From Bacteroidia bacterium (GTDB lineage Bacteria > Bacteroidota > Bacteroidia > J057): DNA of 64,000 nt. The notes beneath the pieces were generated by a model. That model was not told the origin of the DNA. It was given only the letters and a program-made list of their open reading frames with translations, and made no database searches. Positions 4,894-60,427 of the stretch are shown here, piece after piece. The stretch spans positions 62,001 to 126,000 of the forward strand of contig JAUIKF010000017.1 of assembly GCA_030430575.1 (NCBI GenBank), given 5' to 3'. Position numbers and translations under genes: made by a program. The number at the start of each line of letters is the position of its first letter. Position 1 is the stretch's first letter.

Positions 4894-5940
4894 TTATTCT
4901 TCTCCTTTCTCGAAGTGGTCCCATCCCTGGGCATTGATATCTGCCACTTCCCCACTATCCAATGTCAATTGAATTTGCTTCGCATCATCGGTCATCCGGC
5001 CGATGATGTGCAAGCCATTCTCAGATTTAATTTTGTCATAATCTGATAATGGTACAGTGAAAATCAATTCATAATCTTCTCCCCCGTTTAACGCAAAGGT
5101 CGTTGGCCCTAATTCAAATTCTTCTCCTACACTGACCGTCTGATGATCGATCGGAATTTTATTGGCGTAAATGATTGCGCCCGTTTTGCTTTGACGGCAC
5201 AGGTGATTCAGTTCGCTAGCTAGCCCATCACTGATGTCCATCATGGAAGTCGGCTGTACCCCCAACTCTCTTAAACGAAGGATGACATCACCACGCGCAT
5301 CGGGCTTCAACTGCCGGCCAATGACATAGTCATAGTCTGTGAGATCGGGCTGCTCGTCAGGACGATCTTTAAAGGTGACTTTCTCACGCTCCAGGACGAG
5401 CAGCCCAGCATAGGCAGCACCGAGGTCTCCTGTTACACAAATCAAATCATTGGCCTTAGCACCTTTCCTGTAAACAATCTCATCTTCAAGTGCCTGCCCA
5501 AAGGCTGTCACAGAGATCACCAGACCTTGCTGAGAGCTCGTTGTATCTCCTCCTAGCAAATCCACTTGGTATTTCTCACACGCCAAGGCGACGCCTGCAT
5601 AGAGCTCTTCCACGGCCTCTACGGGAAAGCGGTTGCTCAATCCAAGGGAAATAGTAACCCCATAAGGCAGTGCATTCATCGCATAGATATCGCTGAGGTT
5701 CACTGCGACTGCCTTGAACCCCAAATGCCGCAGCGGCGCATATCCCAAATCAAAGTGGACATTTTCCAAGAGCATATCTGAAGTGAAGACCTGGACCTTT
5801 CCCTCTCCGCTACGCACGACAGCTGCATCATCGCCAATTCCTTTGGCGACTTGCGCGTGACGCAAAGAAAATTTTGCGGTGATTCGATCTATCAGACCAA
5901 ATTCGCCCAACTGTGAAATAGGAGTTAAATCAGAAGCCAT
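4894..5940 (-). CDS. thiL: Thiamine-monophosphate kinase
   Basis: 348 residues; phosphorylates thiamine monophosphate to thiamine diphosphate with ATP, the last step of cofactor synthesis. N-terminal GEFGLIDRI, then GIGDDAAVV (Mg/ATP-binding Asp pair, about residue 36), VNLSDIYAMNA, LLGGDTTSS, ICVTGDLGAAYAGL, MMDISDGLASEL and NGGEDYELIFTV. All are hallmark blocks of ThiL in the PurM-like ATP-binding superfamily, in order and at normal length. No other thiamine gene is adjacent. Its promoter must lie in the gene-free stretch that begins at 5941, which is also the origin candidate. Confidence 0.95.
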   Translation of the reverse strand: MASDLTPISQLGEFGLIDRITAKFSLRHAQVAKGIGDDAAVVRSGEGKVQVFTSDMLLENVHFDLGYAPLRHLGFKAVAVNLSDIYAMNALPYGVTISLGLSNRFPVEAVEELYAGVALACEKYQVDLLGGDTTSSQQGLVISVTAFGQALEDEIVYRKGAKANDLICVTGDLGAAYAGLLVLEREKVTFKDRPDEQPDLTDYDYVIGRQLKPDARGDVILRLRELGVQPTSMMDISDGLASELNHLCRQSKTGAIIYANKIPIDHQTVSVGEEFELGPTTFALNGGEDYELIFTVPLSDYDKIKSENGLHIIGRMTDDAKQIQLTLDSGEVADINAQGWDHFEKGEE

Positions 5941-6460
5941 AGAATATTTTCATTATTTTTTTTTCGAATCCGCGTTTCGCATAAGAAACCACTTTATTGA
6001 ATGACAAATTTCTTCTTTTTTTAATTAATAAAGAATAATACTATTAATGGTGCTGTGGATAAGCGGGAAAACTTCTTTTTCTAGGCCTTGATTTTAAGCT
6101 TACACACATTATTTGAGAATTAATCAACGCTACTTGACAGATATAAGCGCTTGATATCCAAATAGCTTTAGTGCTTTATCCACATATTCACATAGGTGTG
6201 GAAATCCTTTCAACGGAACAAAATAAATCGTCAATAAGTGTAAAAAGGTGTGAACAAATGGCGGATTATCCCCGATGCTTTTCCACACCCCTCAGGTTCC
6301 CCACAGATTGTGTACAAATATGGGCCCTTGTGGATAAGCTAATTTTTATTCACAGACGAAATCCACATTCTGTGTGAAAAAGTGTGGAAAATAAATGACT
6401 GATAATCAGCTATTTAGGGAAGTTATAATAAAAGATGTGGAAAAGCCCATCGGGCCTTGA
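5941..6460. other. Candidate chromosomal replication origin (DnaA-box cluster plus AT-rich stretch)
   Basis: A 520-bp gap with no credible gene. Exact DnaA boxes (TTATCCACA, or TTATNCACA, on either strand) occur at 6054-6062 (-), 6176-6184 (+), 6329-6337 (-) and 6346-6354 (+). One-mismatch copies lie at 6184-6192, 6249-6257, 6279-6287, 6309-6317, 6383-6391 and 6436-6444. On the left, 5941-6050 is very AT-rich with T runs and AATTAATAAAGAATAATA, a plausible unwinding element. This architecture is typical of bacterial oriC. In Bacteroidota the origin need not be beside dnaA, and no dnaA is in the window. Against it, gene orientation does not switch here. The sequence pattern is direct; the function is inferred. 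Confidence 0.6.
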
Positions 6461-7174
6461 CTAAATCGGTGCCTTTCTTATGAGGTAATCACATCGATAG
6501 TCAGCATAAGGGAGGTGAGCAGGTTGCTCGATGCGTTCTATTTGTGCACCGAGGGAGTGAGCGATCTGCTTCAGCGTTTTTTCGTTCCAAAATTTCCCCA
6601 TATCATCCTGCTGGATCAATCGCTTGAGATGATACTTAATTTTGGATTTGAGGGTAGGGTAAAAGGTATTAAAATACTTCTGTTCTGGAACATCTCCCAA
6701 TAAAAGGATGCCATCTTCCTTCAAAAAGTGAAGCATTGCTTTTAAGGCAGCTTTCCCTTTTGTTTGGGTATCGAAATACTGAAAGGAAAAATAGAGATTA
6801 ATCTTATCGAAACCTCCTTGGGGAGCAATAGTAGGAAAAGCAGGATCCTGAAGAAGTTTCGTGACATCTGCTAAGTGATAGCGGATATTGTCTTTGGAGG
6901 CATGTGCTTCAGCAAGGGCTATTTGTTCTGAAGAAATATCTACCCCCACTACTTGCTGGCAGTTGTCTGCCAAAGGAAAAGTCAACATGCCATTTCCACA
7001 ACACAAATCCAATAAATGATCAGAAGGCTGTAAATCAAGTAAGGAAGAAATACGAGCTGTAATAGCTTCAACAATTGGTGCTTGCACAGTTAGTCCTTTC
7101 CTAATCCTTCCCACTTGTGCTTGCGGATGTGAATTGAGAGTGGCCTGCTGATCCCAAAATCTTTTCCAATTCAC
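6461..7174 (-). CDS. Class I SAM-dependent methyltransferase, substrate unknown
   Basis: 237 residues. The SAM-binding motif I LLDLCCGNGMLTFPLA is at about 54-69, followed by VVGVDISSEQIALAEAHA (acidic residue binding the ribose), YHLADVTKLL and FDKINLYFSFQYF (motifs II-III). The fold is the Methyltransf_25/UbiE-like Rossmann type. The start codon overlaps the stop of the upstream tatD-family gene by 4 bp (7171-7174, ATGA), so the two are translationally coupled. Nothing identifies the substrate. Confidence 0.75.
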   Translation of the reverse strand: MNWKRFWDQQATLNSHPQAQVGRIRKGLTVQAPIVEAITARISSLLDLQPSDHLLDLCCGNGMLTFPLADNCQQVVGVDISSEQIALAEAHASKDNIRYHLADVTKLLQDPAFPTIAPQGGFDKINLYFSFQYFDTQTKGKAALKAMLHFLKEDGILLLGDVPEQKYFNTFYPTLKSKIKYHLKRLIQQDDMGKFWNEKTLKQIAHSLGAQIERIEQPAHLPYADYRCDYLIRKAPI

Positions 7175-30298: not shown

Positions 30299-31876
<1,578 letters not shown>

Positions 31877-40508: not shown

Positions 40509-42923
40509 ATGAGCGAATCTCCTTTGCAAGATCCCACCAATCAACCTGAAAATCCTGGATCTGAAGCTAAAGAACCCATTCAGGATAAGCAGAATCAGGC
40601 AGGTCCTCCGTCAGAGAATCCTGTAACGCCTACGGTAGAGGCAACAAAGCCTGTCGAGGCCAGTCCCAAAGAAGCAGTGCCTCCTCCATCGTCCCCTGCT
40701 CAGAAGAATTTTAAGCTCCAGCGCAAGTTGGTGATAGGAGTGGCTATCGCCATATTGGTATTTGTCTTGGGAGCATTTGTCTTTGCAGCTCGTAACTTAC
40801 CGTCCCTTGCTGAAATCGAGAACCCCAAGGCTGACCTCTCTACGCAGGTCTTTTCGGCGGATGGGGAAGTATTGCAAAATTTCTACTCCGACCAAGACCG
40901 TATCACGGTAGAACTTAATGAGATCTCTCCCAACCTGATCAATGCTTTGATTGCAACGGAGGATGCCCGTTTTTATGGGCATGCAGGGGTAGACCCTGTC
41001 GCACCTTTTGCTATCATGAAGGACGTACTTACGTCACAAGGCGTTCGGGGAGGGAGTACAATTACCCAGCAGCTTGCCCGAAATTTGTATAATAAAAAAG
41101 TGGGAAAAGACCGTAGTCTCACACGGAAGCTAAAGGAGATGATTGTATCGTGGATTATTGAACGAAAATTCACGAAGCAGGAAATCCTCGCTGGGTACCT
41201 CAATACAGTCAATATTTATGGGAGCTCTTATGGGATAGAAATGGCTTGTCAAAGCCTTTTTAATAAAAGCGCACGAAAAGTGACCATAGAAGAAGCTGCA
41301 TTGATCGTAGGGATGCTCAAAGGGCAAGGCTTATTCAATCCTTATACAAAACCTGAAAATGCGACAAATCGCAGAAATACCGTCATCAACTTAATGGTAC
41401 AACATGAGATCCTAAACCCAGATAGCATCGATGTTGACTCGATTAAAGAGATTCCTCTTTCTGACTATGTAGTCGCAAAACAAGGCCAGAGTCACGTTCG
41501 GGGACTTGCACCTTATTTCCGCGAGCATGTACGCAATTACCTCAAAGGATGGTGCAAAGACAATGGACATGATTTATATACAGATGGATTAAGAGTCTAC
41601 ACGACCATCGATTCACGTATGCAACGCCATGCGGAAAAAGCGGTGGAGGAGCATTTATCAGGGCTCCAAAAGGATTTTGATAAACACATCAAAGGAAAAG
41701 AACCCTACAAAAAAGACCCTTCTATCATTACTCGCCTTCAGCGTCAGTCCTATCGCTATCTTTCAGCCAAAAAAGCCAAAAAGACAGCAACAGAAATAGC
41801 AGAAGAGTTTGATACTCCTCGAAAGATGTCCATTTTTACTTGGGAGGGGGAAGTCGATACGACGATGACACCGATGGATTCGTTGAAGCACTATTCGAAA
41901 TTCTTAGAGGTGGGAATGGTATCTATTGACCCTACCAATGGACAAGTCAAAGCATGGGTTGGCGGGATCAATTATAAACATTTCAAATATGACCATGTGG
42001 CGAAAGGTACGCGGCAGGTAGGTTCTACCTTCAAGCCATTTTTCTACGCGACCCTTATCAACGAAAAACCTGAATACGAACCTTGTACGCCTGTTCTCAA
42101 TCAGCGCGTCCAATTTCTCTTGCCCGATGGCAAATATTGGGAACCCAAAAACTCTGATGGTTCACAAGGAGGAAAAGTTACGTTAAGGAGAGGACTAGCG
42201 ACGTCAGCGAACTTGGTGACCGCCCAGCTATTGCAAAGATTGATGCAGGATGGGGTGGGGGTCAATGAGGTAGTGAAACTGGCCCAAAAAATGGGGATCA
42301 AGAGTTTTATCGACCCTGTCCCTTCATTGATTCTGGGTACTGCGGACCTCAATGTGATGGAGCTGACCAGTGCCTATACTACGTTTGCCAATAAAGGTAC
42401 TCGTGCAGAGCCCGTATTTATTACCCGTATCGAAGACCGAAATGGTAATGTCTTGGCAGAGTTCAGTGGAAAAACCCGTAAAGTAATGCCAGAGAATGAG
42501 GCATATACCATGGTAGAGTTGCTCAAAGGAGTTGTAGACGAACCAGGAGGTACGGCGGGCCGCCTTCGCTTCCGCTACAAATTCACCAATGAAATTGGCG
42601 GAAAGACAGGCACTACCCAGAACCAATCCGACGGATGGTTTATGGGAATAACCCCGAATCTCGTTACGGGCGTATGGGTAGGCTGCGCGGAGCGCCAGAT
42701 GCGCTTCCGTTCTATCAGACTAGGGCAGGGAGCGAATATGGCATTGCCTATCTGGGGACTTTATATGCAAGATGTCTATGCCGATGAAGAAATCGGATTG
42801 CCTCAGGATCGCTTTGAGCGGCCTGAAGGATTCGAAGTGGACTTTAGTTGTGAGGTGGCAGAAGAAGGAGAAGAAGTTGAACTTAATCCCCCCAATGTGA
42901 ACGAATTGGAGAAATATGATTAA
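40509..42923 (+). CDS. Class A penicillin-binding protein (PBP1A-type)
   Basis: 804 residues from the ATG at 40509 (MSESPLQDP), chosen because a -7 box lies at 40447-40454. A Pro/Glu-rich cytoplasmic tail, one membrane helix (LVIGVAIAILVFVLGAFVFAA, about 75-95), then the GT51 domain with ATEDARFYGHAGVDP (catalytic Glu) and RGGSTITQQLARNLY. The transpeptidase domain has GSTFKPF (SxxK, about 520), SAN (SxN) and KTGTT. Polymerises and cross-links peptidoglycan. Ends in an acidic tail (EEGEEVELNPPNVNELEKYD). Confidence 0.95.
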   Translation: MSESPLQDPTNQPENPGSEAKEPIQDKQNQAGPPSENPVTPTVEATKPVEASPKEAVPPPSSPAQKNFKLQRKLVIGVAIAILVFVLGAFVFAARNLPSLAEIENPKADLSTQVFSADGEVLQNFYSDQDRITVELNEISPNLINALIATEDARFYGHAGVDPVAPFAIMKDVLTSQGVRGGSTITQQLARNLYNKKVGKDRSLTRKLKEMIVSWIIERKFTKQEILAGYLNTVNIYGSSYGIEMACQSLFNKSARKVTIEEAALIVGMLKGQGLFNPYTKPENATNRRNTVINLMVQHEILNPDSIDVDSIKEIPLSDYVVAKQGQSHVRGLAPYFREHVRNYLKGWCKDNGHDLYTDGLRVYTTIDSRMQRHAEKAVEEHLSGLQKDFDKHIKGKEPYKKDPSIITRLQRQSYRYLSAKKAKKTATEIAEEFDTPRKMSIFTWEGEVDTTMTPMDSLKHYSKFLEVGMVSIDPTNGQVKAWVGGINYKHFKYDHVAKGTRQVGSTFKPFFYATLINEKPEYEPCTPVLNQRVQFLLPDGKYWEPKNSDGSQGGKVTLRRGLATSANLVTAQLLQRLMQDGVGVNEVVKLAQKMGIKSFIDPVPSLILGTADLNVMELTSAYTTFANKGTRAEPVFITRIEDRNGNVLAEFSGKTRKVMPENEAYTMVELLKGVVDEPGGTAGRLRFRYKFTNEIGGKTGTTQNQSDGWFMGITPNLVTGVWVGCAERQMRFRSIRLGQGANMALPIWGLYMQDVYADEEIGLPQDRFERPEGFEVDFSCEVAEEGEEVELNPPNVNELEKYD

Positions 42924-58333: not shown

Positions 58334-60427
58334 ATGTCTGTAATGAGTAGGATTCGCAACAACCTGCCGCTAGTTGCGGTGGTTATTGCGATAGCAATTT
58401 TAGCTTTTACTGTCAGTGACTTTCTCAACCAATTCTTTAGTGGAAGCCGAGCGCCTGAAGACGCTGGCGTGATCGCGGGAAGAGTGATCAGTGCACAAGA
58501 CTTCCAGACCCGTTACCAAAATGCCTTGGCTAGTGCCAAAGCCCAATCGCCTAACGGCATCATCCCTGACCAGCAAGAACTCCAGATTCTGGACCAAACC
58601 TGGAATCAACTGGTGACGGAGATTGTCTATGGAGATGAGTTGGATAAGGTCGGCCTGAATGTGACCGGGGCAGAGCTTGTTGACATTTTTACGGGTAAAA
58701 ATATGTCTGACTTTGTGAAGAATAAGTATCAGGCAGCTGTAGAGCAAAACCTCCAAAAGCCCTTTAATGGGGCTTCTATGAAGGAGTTTATTCAACTCAT
58801 TCAGGACCAAGGTACCCCAGAATACAAGCAGGACCTCAAGGAGTTTGAAAAAGCACTCAAAGAGTACACGGCACAGGAGCACTACCGTAAGATGGTCAAG
58901 GCTAGCTATACGAGCTCTTCTGCTTTGGCACGTCAGCGCTTCATCGACAATAACCATAGCGCGGATGTCTCCTTCATGGCTGTCAACTATTCTGCCGTGC
59001 CAGATAGCCTCATCGAGGTAGATGATAGTGATTATAAAGCATTTTTGAAGGAAAATGCGCACCGCTTCAAGCAAGAGGAATCTACTTCTATTCGCTTTGT
59101 ACGGTTTGACATCACGCCAAGTGCAGCTGATACTGCCGAGGTGAAAGCTGAAGCAGAGCGTTGGAAAAAGACTTTTGCCAGCGTGCCTAACGACTCTACC
59201 TGGACGCTGCGCAAGTCGAGTGTGCCATTTATTCCTGGCCAATTCGCTCCAATGTCTGATCTGCCTGCCAATGTTCAGGAAAATGTCCTCAATATGGCAG
59301 ACAAAGAAGTCATCGGCCCATTCTTGGAAGGAGATAAATTCAAGCTATACAAGCTTGTGAGTTCACAGGTGTCAGAAGATGATACTTGGGCACAGGTAAA
59401 AGTAGCCACTTTCCCTAAAGGGCAAACTCCTGAAGATTCCATTAAAAACCGCGAAGATGCGCTAGCTGGCCTCCGCACAGCCCGTAGCCAAAGCATGGAC
59501 TCCCTTAGTAATGCATTTGATAGAGGCTGGTATCGAAAAGGTTCTTTTGGAGAAGACTTTGATGAGCAAGTTGCAAATGCTTCTGTCGGAAGCATTATTG
59601 GCCCAATCGCAGACGCCCGCGGCTTTCATGTAGTTCAAGTCTTGAATAAGACCAATAAGCAATTCTCTGTTGCACAAGTAGAGCGTGAGCTTTTCTATAG
59701 TGACAAAACACTCAATGAGGCCGATGATAAAGCGGCATTGTTCGCGGCCAAAGCAATGGACTTGAACAATATTGAAGCGGCAGCTTCTGAAGAAGGAATA
59801 GCCAGTTATCCTAGCGGCGCCCTTACAGGTACTTCTAAGAGCCTTACAGGACTGAACGAAGGAGTTCGCAAGATTATCTTGTGGGCCTTAAAATCGGATG
59901 TAGGCGCTTTCTCAGAAATTTTCAAAGCTGGTGACAGCTTTGTCCTAGCGCAGGTTACTGAAAAGCGTTCTGAAGGCACCCAGTCTGTCGACGCTGTGCG
60001 TGCGTCGATTGCAACAGAAGTCTTGAATAAGAAGAAGGCAGAATTTATTATTAGTAAAATTAAAGGCCTTAGTGTCAATAATGACCTAGCGGCAATGACA
60101 ACTGAATATGGCACAGGTGCTTATACTGATACGGAAGCAGCTGTTACATTCAATGGTGCATTGAACAAAATAGGGCAAGATCCATTTATCCAAGGCTATA
60201 TTGCTGGAATGGAAGAAGGCACTGTCAGCCCGCCGCTTGAAGGCGTAAATGGTGTATATGTACTCCAAGTCACCAAAAAGAATGGTGCTGAGCCTACACC
60301 AGAAGACCTCCCCACTCAAAAGAGTGCAGACGTGATTTCTGGTACAAGTGCGATGGAAGCTAAAATCGACCAAGGGCTTCGTGAAGTCATCGACATCAAA
60401 GACTTGCGCTGGAAAGCAGGTTTCTAA
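58334..60427 (+). CDS. PpiD/SurA-type peptidyl-prolyl isomerase foldase
   Basis: 697 residues. One N-terminal membrane helix (NNLPLVAVVIAIAILAFTVSDFL, about 9-31) and a SurA_N-like helical part (GVIAGRVISAQDFQTRYQNALASAK). A parvulin-like domain at about 340-440 ends in GSIIGPIADARGFHVVQVLNK; a second weaker one near the C-terminus has EGTVSPPLEGVNGVYVLQVTKK. It is anchored and periplasmic, assisting outer-membrane or secreted-protein folding. It suits the many barrel and T9SS proteins here. Confidence 0.9.
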   Translation: MSVMSRIRNNLPLVAVVIAIAILAFTVSDFLNQFFSGSRAPEDAGVIAGRVISAQDFQTRYQNALASAKAQSPNGIIPDQQELQILDQTWNQLVTEIVYGDELDKVGLNVTGAELVDIFTGKNMSDFVKNKYQAAVEQNLQKPFNGASMKEFIQLIQDQGTPEYKQDLKEFEKALKEYTAQEHYRKMVKASYTSSSALARQRFIDNNHSADVSFMAVNYSAVPDSLIEVDDSDYKAFLKENAHRFKQEESTSIRFVRFDITPSAADTAEVKAEAERWKKTFASVPNDSTWTLRKSSVPFIPGQFAPMSDLPANVQENVLNMADKEVIGPFLEGDKFKLYKLVSSQVSEDDTWAQVKVATFPKGQTPEDSIKNREDALAGLRTARSQSMDSLSNAFDRGWYRKGSFGEDFDEQVANASVGSIIGPIADARGFHVVQVLNKTNKQFSVAQVERELFYSDKTLNEADDKAALFAAKAMDLNNIEAAASEEGIASYPSGALTGTSKSLTGLNEGVRKIILWALKSDVGAFSEIFKAGDSFVLAQVTEKRSEGTQSVDAVRASIATEVLNKKKAEFIISKIKGLSVNNDLAAMTTEYGTGAYTDTEAAVTFNGALNKIGQDPFIQGYIAGMEEGTVSPPLEGVNGVYVLQVTKKNGAEPTPEDLPTQKSADVISGTSAMEAKIDQGLREVIDIKDLRWKAGF

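Follow-up and report, generated by a model that had tools for sequence, protein, structure and literature searches.

A probable chromosomal replication origin beside thiL and apart from dnaA in a Bacteroidota bacterium

Results

The DNA analysed is a 64-kb window, itself part of a 135,323-bp contig (C24); the assembly totals 8.16 Mb and consists of 127 contigs. The region under study is a 520-bp gap (positions 5941–6460 of the window) bounded on the left by thiL, which encodes thiamine-phosphate kinase (4894–5940, minus strand; TIGR01379 score of 315 bits for a cut-off of 184), and on the right by a gene for a class I SAM methyltransferase (6461–7174, minus strand; PF13847). An earlier note on this DNA had singled out the gap as a candidate chromosomal origin and described it as devoid of genes. 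Indeed, none of its open reading frames exceeds 68 codons, and an Rfam search of positions 5941–6460 returned no match, which speaks against a riboswitch or another RNA inside the gap. The same note had listed two points as counter-evidence, and both observations hold. Gene orientation does not change at the gap, thiL and the methyltransferase gene being both on the minus strand; divergent genes are absent at many replication origins. Likewise, the atp genes on the right were said to run head-on to replication, and this is the case of atpA (ATP synthase alpha subunit; 30299–31876, minus strand), which lies about 24 kb to the right of the gap and would face the departing fork. In the near-complete relatives G003 and G005, atpA is co-directional with the fork, and it sits on another contig in G001 and G007. 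The head-on arrangement is therefore not common to relatives, and we take it for a local rearrangement in the window genome.

The gap contains seven sites that match the DnaA box TTATCCACA with at most one mismatch, and these sites span 391 bp. Three of them are exact (6054–6062, minus strand; 6176–6184, plus strand; 6329–6337, minus strand), the first belonging to the conserved core described below and adjoining the probable unwinding stretch. The four others have one mismatch: TTTTCCACA at 6279–6287 (plus strand), 6383–6391 (minus strand) and 6436–6444 (minus strand), and TTATTCACA at 6346–6354 (plus strand). The box cluster noticed earlier within about 400 bp is thus real, even if its inventory has to be amended: the boxes at 6054, 6176 and 6329 are exact as announced, the supposed fourth exact box (6346–6354, plus strand) is the one-mismatch copy TTATTCACA, and there are only four one-mismatch copies (6279, 6346, 6383 and 6436) instead of at least six. 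When two mismatches to TTATCCACA are tolerated, the number of sites in the gap rises to 17. Outside the gap, the 64-kb window holds no exact box and 12 one-mismatch sites. As a chance model, we used 300 first-order (dinucleotide) Markov sequences with the composition of the gap; per 520 bp, they contained on average 0.01 exact sites and 0.13 sites at up to one mismatch, with maxima of 1 and 2, respectively, versus 3 and 7 in the gap. The cluster is far above chance. Across the whole genome (8.16 Mb), TTATCCACA occurs 87 times in its exact form, versus 73 times for the reversed control pattern, which indicates that the word is hardly enriched overall and yet clustered at the gap. A second cluster, upstream of a parA-like gene on contig C28 (see Discussion), is denser in exact boxes.

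The boxes are flanked by the very AT-rich stretch that had been reported beside them. Positions 5994–6047 are 87% AT, a value reached by 0.3% of the 54-bp stretches taken from the 1200 bp that precede thiL, and this composition makes the segment a probable unwinding element. Its right-hand part (6027–6047) reads, on the minus strand, as seven consecutive T-centred triplets that resemble DnaA-trios (TTA ATA GTA TTA TTC TTT ATT), and a six-base spacer, GCACCA (6048–6053, minus strand), stands between these triplets and the exact box at 6054–6062; the orientation of the triplets relative to the box was taken from the description in PMC8235120. A run of seven triplets has a P value of 0.005 under mononucleotide shuffling. 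Among 136 control boxes located on three contigs, 16 were accompanied by at least four triplets and one by at least seven. Judged from its sequence, segment 6027–6062 is a putative basal unwinding site, composed of an exact box, a 6-nt spacer and seven triplets, under a rule that is a loose one.

We then consider the thiL locus in relatives. A ThiL protein search against 40 genomes, own genome included, gave a strong match in 38, and the loci were drawn from the best 30 of these 38, i.e. from the window genome and 29 relatives, eight matching relatives being left out. A cluster was defined as four or more sites, each with at most one mismatch, in 500 bp of the sequence that precedes thiL. Among these best 30 of 38 loci, box clusters are present in nine of the 12 genomes of the family, own genome included (8 of 11 when only the same-family relatives are counted), with four to ten such sites per 500 bp. 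The three exceptions (G009, G011 and G012), which all belong to one genus, have no cluster in the 1.5 kb that precede thiL. Note that G009 carries three exact boxes in 76 bp on contig C199 (54721–54796), possibly its moved origin. At the order or class level, a cluster was found in one of the 18 relatives from the best 30 of 38 loci; this genome, G015, has five sites, in a sequence that looks to the eye like the core of G005 but lacks T-centred triplets. A distant control comprised at least 80 loci, at most 59% identical and nearly all bearing the title of a Bacteroidota group: the sequence upstream of thiL was at least 1000 bp long in 77 of the 80 listed loci (the three others were dropped), and, among the matches listed, none of these 77 displays a cluster.

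The place beside thiL is hence conserved in most family genomes examined. Since the ORF opposite thiL across the gap varies among relatives, thiL is the shared marker of the gap. In G001, a 157-codon ORF separates thiL from the boxes. Conservation of the thiL–methyltransferase gap, suggested earlier as a check, therefore applies to one side: the box cluster adjoins thiL in 8 of 11 family relatives, while the methyltransferase flank differs.

The layout of the core was compared in the nine family genomes with a cluster, the core site having been chosen partly by eye or under looser rules in six of the nine. The G001 core consists of an exact box, a GCTCCA spacer and seven triplets, and that of G003 of an exact box, a GGACCA spacer and four triplets (TTA CTA CTA CTG). 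On the box strand, CTA accounts for none of the seven triplets in the window genome, one in G001 and two in G003. The layout is kept with a poorer box in G002 (AAATCCACA, two mismatches, followed by a GCCCCA spacer and four triplets) and in G004 (ATTTCCACA, two mismatches, followed by a GACCCA spacer and six triplets). It is also kept in G006, where seven triplets adjoin two imperfect boxes. The cores of G005, G007 and G008 have triplet runs of only three. G000, G001 and G003 are the three genomes for which we claim the putative layout together with an exact box.

Cumulative GC skew was computed from joined stretches of contig C24. Its minimum falls inside the gap, at contig position 68,304 (window position 6304); the predicted coincidence of the skew minimum with the gap is thus confirmed at the scale of this 135-kb contig. 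Because raw skew tracks gene orientation, we also examined fourfold-degenerate sites, averaging plus-strand and minus-strand genes, with the longest non-overlapping ORFs of at least 120 codons as gene models. The orientation-corrected skew is −0.073 to the left of the gap and +0.039 to the right, a difference that was equalled in none of 5000 gene permutations. When the contig was cut every 1 kb, from 15 kb after its start to 15 kb before its end, the cuts with the highest corrected-skew difference were those at 67 and 68 kb, both of which divide the genes at the gap. Without this correction, the cumulative curve of fourfold-degenerate sites reaches its lowest point at 59,299, which is 9 kb left of the gap.

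The near-complete relatives G003 and G005 extend this analysis, by sampling, to the chromosome scale. In G003, the skew minimum within 200 kb lies at 3,787,707, about 0.3 kb from thiL (3,788,003) and some 290 bp away from the core box (3,787,413–3,787,421); in G005, it lies at 6,767,914, 1.5 kb from thiL (6,769,422) and past the first ORF on this side. In three genomes, accordingly, the thiL gap has a skew switch and a box cluster no more than 1.5 kb apart. Chromosome-wide skew was sampled in 20 stretches of 20 kb per chromosome. The raw skew has the sign that an origin at the thiL gap would give in 20 of 20 stretches for G003 and in 17 of 20 for G005 (the sign being wrong in the other three), with the arms of G005 set using the skew maximum near dnaA and two of its 20 stretches adjoining the gap. 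The leading strand carries 67% of the sampled coding bases in G003 and 48% in G005; gene orientation therefore supports the origin in G003 and is silent in G005. In both sets of stretches, which exclude G003:3,575,178–3,575,530 and the parA regions of both genomes, boxes are densest at the gap, with 8 sites per 500 bp in G003 (versus at most 4 elsewhere) and 4 sites per 500 bp in G005 (versus at most 3 elsewhere). The excluded G003 region (C1:3575178–3575530), 212 kb from the candidate oriC, contains three exact boxes in 353 bp and is a denser group of exact boxes.

In the window genome, dnaA is on contig C15, apart from the contig that carries the gap. The dnaA locus was rejected as an origin, as no exact box occurs in the surrounding 20 kb and no skew switch is seen (corrected skew of +0.011 and +0.024, permutation value 0.40; the skew is weak). 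In G003, dnaA is at C1:427–912 of 7,538,910 bp, 3.8 Mb from the gap; in G005, it is at C1:2671409–2671894 of 8,164,022 bp, 4.1 Mb from the gap (near 6,769,300). In both genomes, dnaA is thus about half a chromosome away from the gap. Skew maxima were sought only within about 420–440 kb around dnaA. If the contigs are closed circles, they lie 21 kb from dnaA in G003 (7,518,413) and 33 kb from dnaA in G005 (2,638,057), the latter maximum not being sharp because the curve is flat over about 200 kb. The wider samples of the two chromosomes agree with the location of this sign turn, and the skew maximum is likely to be the terminus in G003 and G005. Searches with consensus sequences gave, for dif, one match in the own genome, two in G005 (both away from the skew maximum) and none in three other genomes, and, for parS with at most one mismatch, no match in five genomes.

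Other groups of boxes exist in the window genome. Contig C109 has a pair of exact DnaA boxes. Contig C21 (L034 7382–7637) has four boxes at up to one mismatch, two of them exact, between two ORFs that read like the subunits of ribonucleotide reductase, the large subunit bearing an intein-like insertion. The C21 cluster was set aside as presumably regulatory.

Discussion

At the gap upstream of thiL, DnaA boxes, an AT-rich element and a triplet layout lie side by side and recur in relatives, and strand composition switches at the same place. We conclude that positions 5941–6460 are very probably the chromosomal oriC of a Bacteroidota bacterium; the origin reading put forward in the earlier note is supported by the skew minimum of C24, by the thiL-side clusters in relatives and by the skew of G003 and G005. 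From these features we infer that DnaA binds the gap, unwinds it and fires replication there. DnaA, supplied by the distant dnaA gene on another contig, would fill the exact boxes first and the weaker boxes next. A DnaA filament would then grow leftwards from the box at 6054–6062 across the triplets at 6027–6047 and open the AT-rich stretch adjoining thiL (5994–6047), and the opened stretch would admit helicase loading for two forks. Several observations go against the oriC reading: G005 combines 48% leading-strand coding with 4 boxes per 500 bp and three core triplets, atpA is head-on, three genomes of one genus lack the thiL cluster, and denser groups of exact boxes exist elsewhere.

A rival reading takes the gap for a site of DnaA titration or regulation, comparable to datA or to DnaA-controlled promoters, and places the origin elsewhere, e.g. 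at the parA cluster on contig C28. Just upstream of the parA-like gene, the box region C28:41891–41951 (L033 9891–9951) has three exact DnaA boxes, packed in 39 bp (41891–41929) and hence denser than those of the gap; moreover, parA is preceded by at least one box (at most one mismatch) within 500 bp in all ten genomes where it was found, own genome included, out of 12 searched. Yet the corrected skew keeps its sign across the C28 cluster (+0.049 on one side, +0.056 on the other; permutation value 0.40), on which ground it was rejected as an origin, and parA is 2.7 Mb (G003) and about 2.3 Mb (G005) away from the skew minimum, if the contigs are circular, whereas the thiL gap has both the switch and the boxes in three genomes. 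The finding that the earlier note had named as fatal to its proposal, a skew minimum elsewhere together with a denser box cluster, was thus not obtained at C28, where the denser cluster is devoid of a skew switch. We consider it very improbable that the gap merely titrates DnaA or serves regulation. As for the boxes upstream of parA, their position suggests that DnaA may control parA or that they may form a DnaA reservoir.

A fortuitous cluster in the AT-rich promoter region of thiL is scarcely credible. The gap is 65% AT, lies upstream of thiL and contains one promoter-like match, fewer than shuffles give; set against this, the Markov maximum is 2 sites at up to one mismatch whereas the gap has 7, clusters recur beside thiL in relatives, the gap has no Rfam match, and conservation is accompanied by a skew switch. 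It would be just as surprising if the gap were the terminus and dnaA the origin, with the strand bias reversed. Such an inversion would agree with the roughly half a chromosome that lies between dnaA and the gap in G003 and G005, and G005 has no gene-orientation bias that would fix the direction. However, it is the gap that has the boxes and the AT-rich core, the stretches around dnaA not exceeding 2 (G003) or 3 (G005) sites per 500 bp; moreover, 67% of the sampled coding bases of G003 run away from the gap, and an excess of G on the leading strand is, according to PMC8941118, the usual rule.

With the gap as oriC, dnaA is near the likely terminus, opposite oriC, in G003 and G005, an arrangement that is less expected than a mere separation of oriC and dnaA. 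A tentative and rather speculative explanation is that the family keeps dnaA at the terminus, where it would be copied last and its dosage would rise only at the end of a round, which could link initiation to completion. Searches of open PubMed Central papers brought up no title or opening of an abstract that deals with the origin of this family or with its dnaA at the terminus. If general, the location of dnaA near the likely terminus, seen in two relatives, would provide a natural test of the effect of dnaA dosage on the timing of initiation. In practical terms, the origin has been placed to within a few hundred bases despite an assembly in 127 pieces, and thiL, not dnaA, adjoins it in most family genomes examined. 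Knowing its position helps in estimating growth rates from read depth and in choosing the zero point of genomes.

An oriC far from dnaA is already in print for Bacteroidetes (PMC4755523), as the earlier note had assumed for Bacteroidota, and in this respect the gap is an ordinary kind of site. The predicted oriC of Prevotella intermedia OMA14 is away from dnaA, a situation described there as common in Bacteroidetes according to DoriC, and it resembles the gap in that several DnaA boxes coincide with a GC-skew transition, apart from dnaA (PMC4755523). OMA14 differs in that it belongs to another lineage and that its oriC and dnaA are about 0.78 Mb apart on a chromosome of 2.28 Mb, dnaA not being opposite (PMC4755523). 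Ori-Finder relies on features similar to those used here (PMC10225481). The basal unwinding system, known from Bacillus subtilis and numerous other bacteria, is described as a DnaA box followed, after no more than 16 nt, by three or more triplets that share a conserved central base, CTA (3′-GAT-5′) being the commonest (PMC8287927). The putative unwinding module of the gap likewise has a DnaA box, a short spacer and triplets with a central T; in contrast, its triplets are TTA, ATA or GTA instead of CTA, and its neighbour is thiL. Finally, the order of elements in the unwinding region of Helicobacter pylori, namely a box, a GC-rich spacer, triplets and an AT-rich region, is that seen in the gap, whereas the H. 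pylori oriC is bipartite and has other box sequences (PMC8235120).
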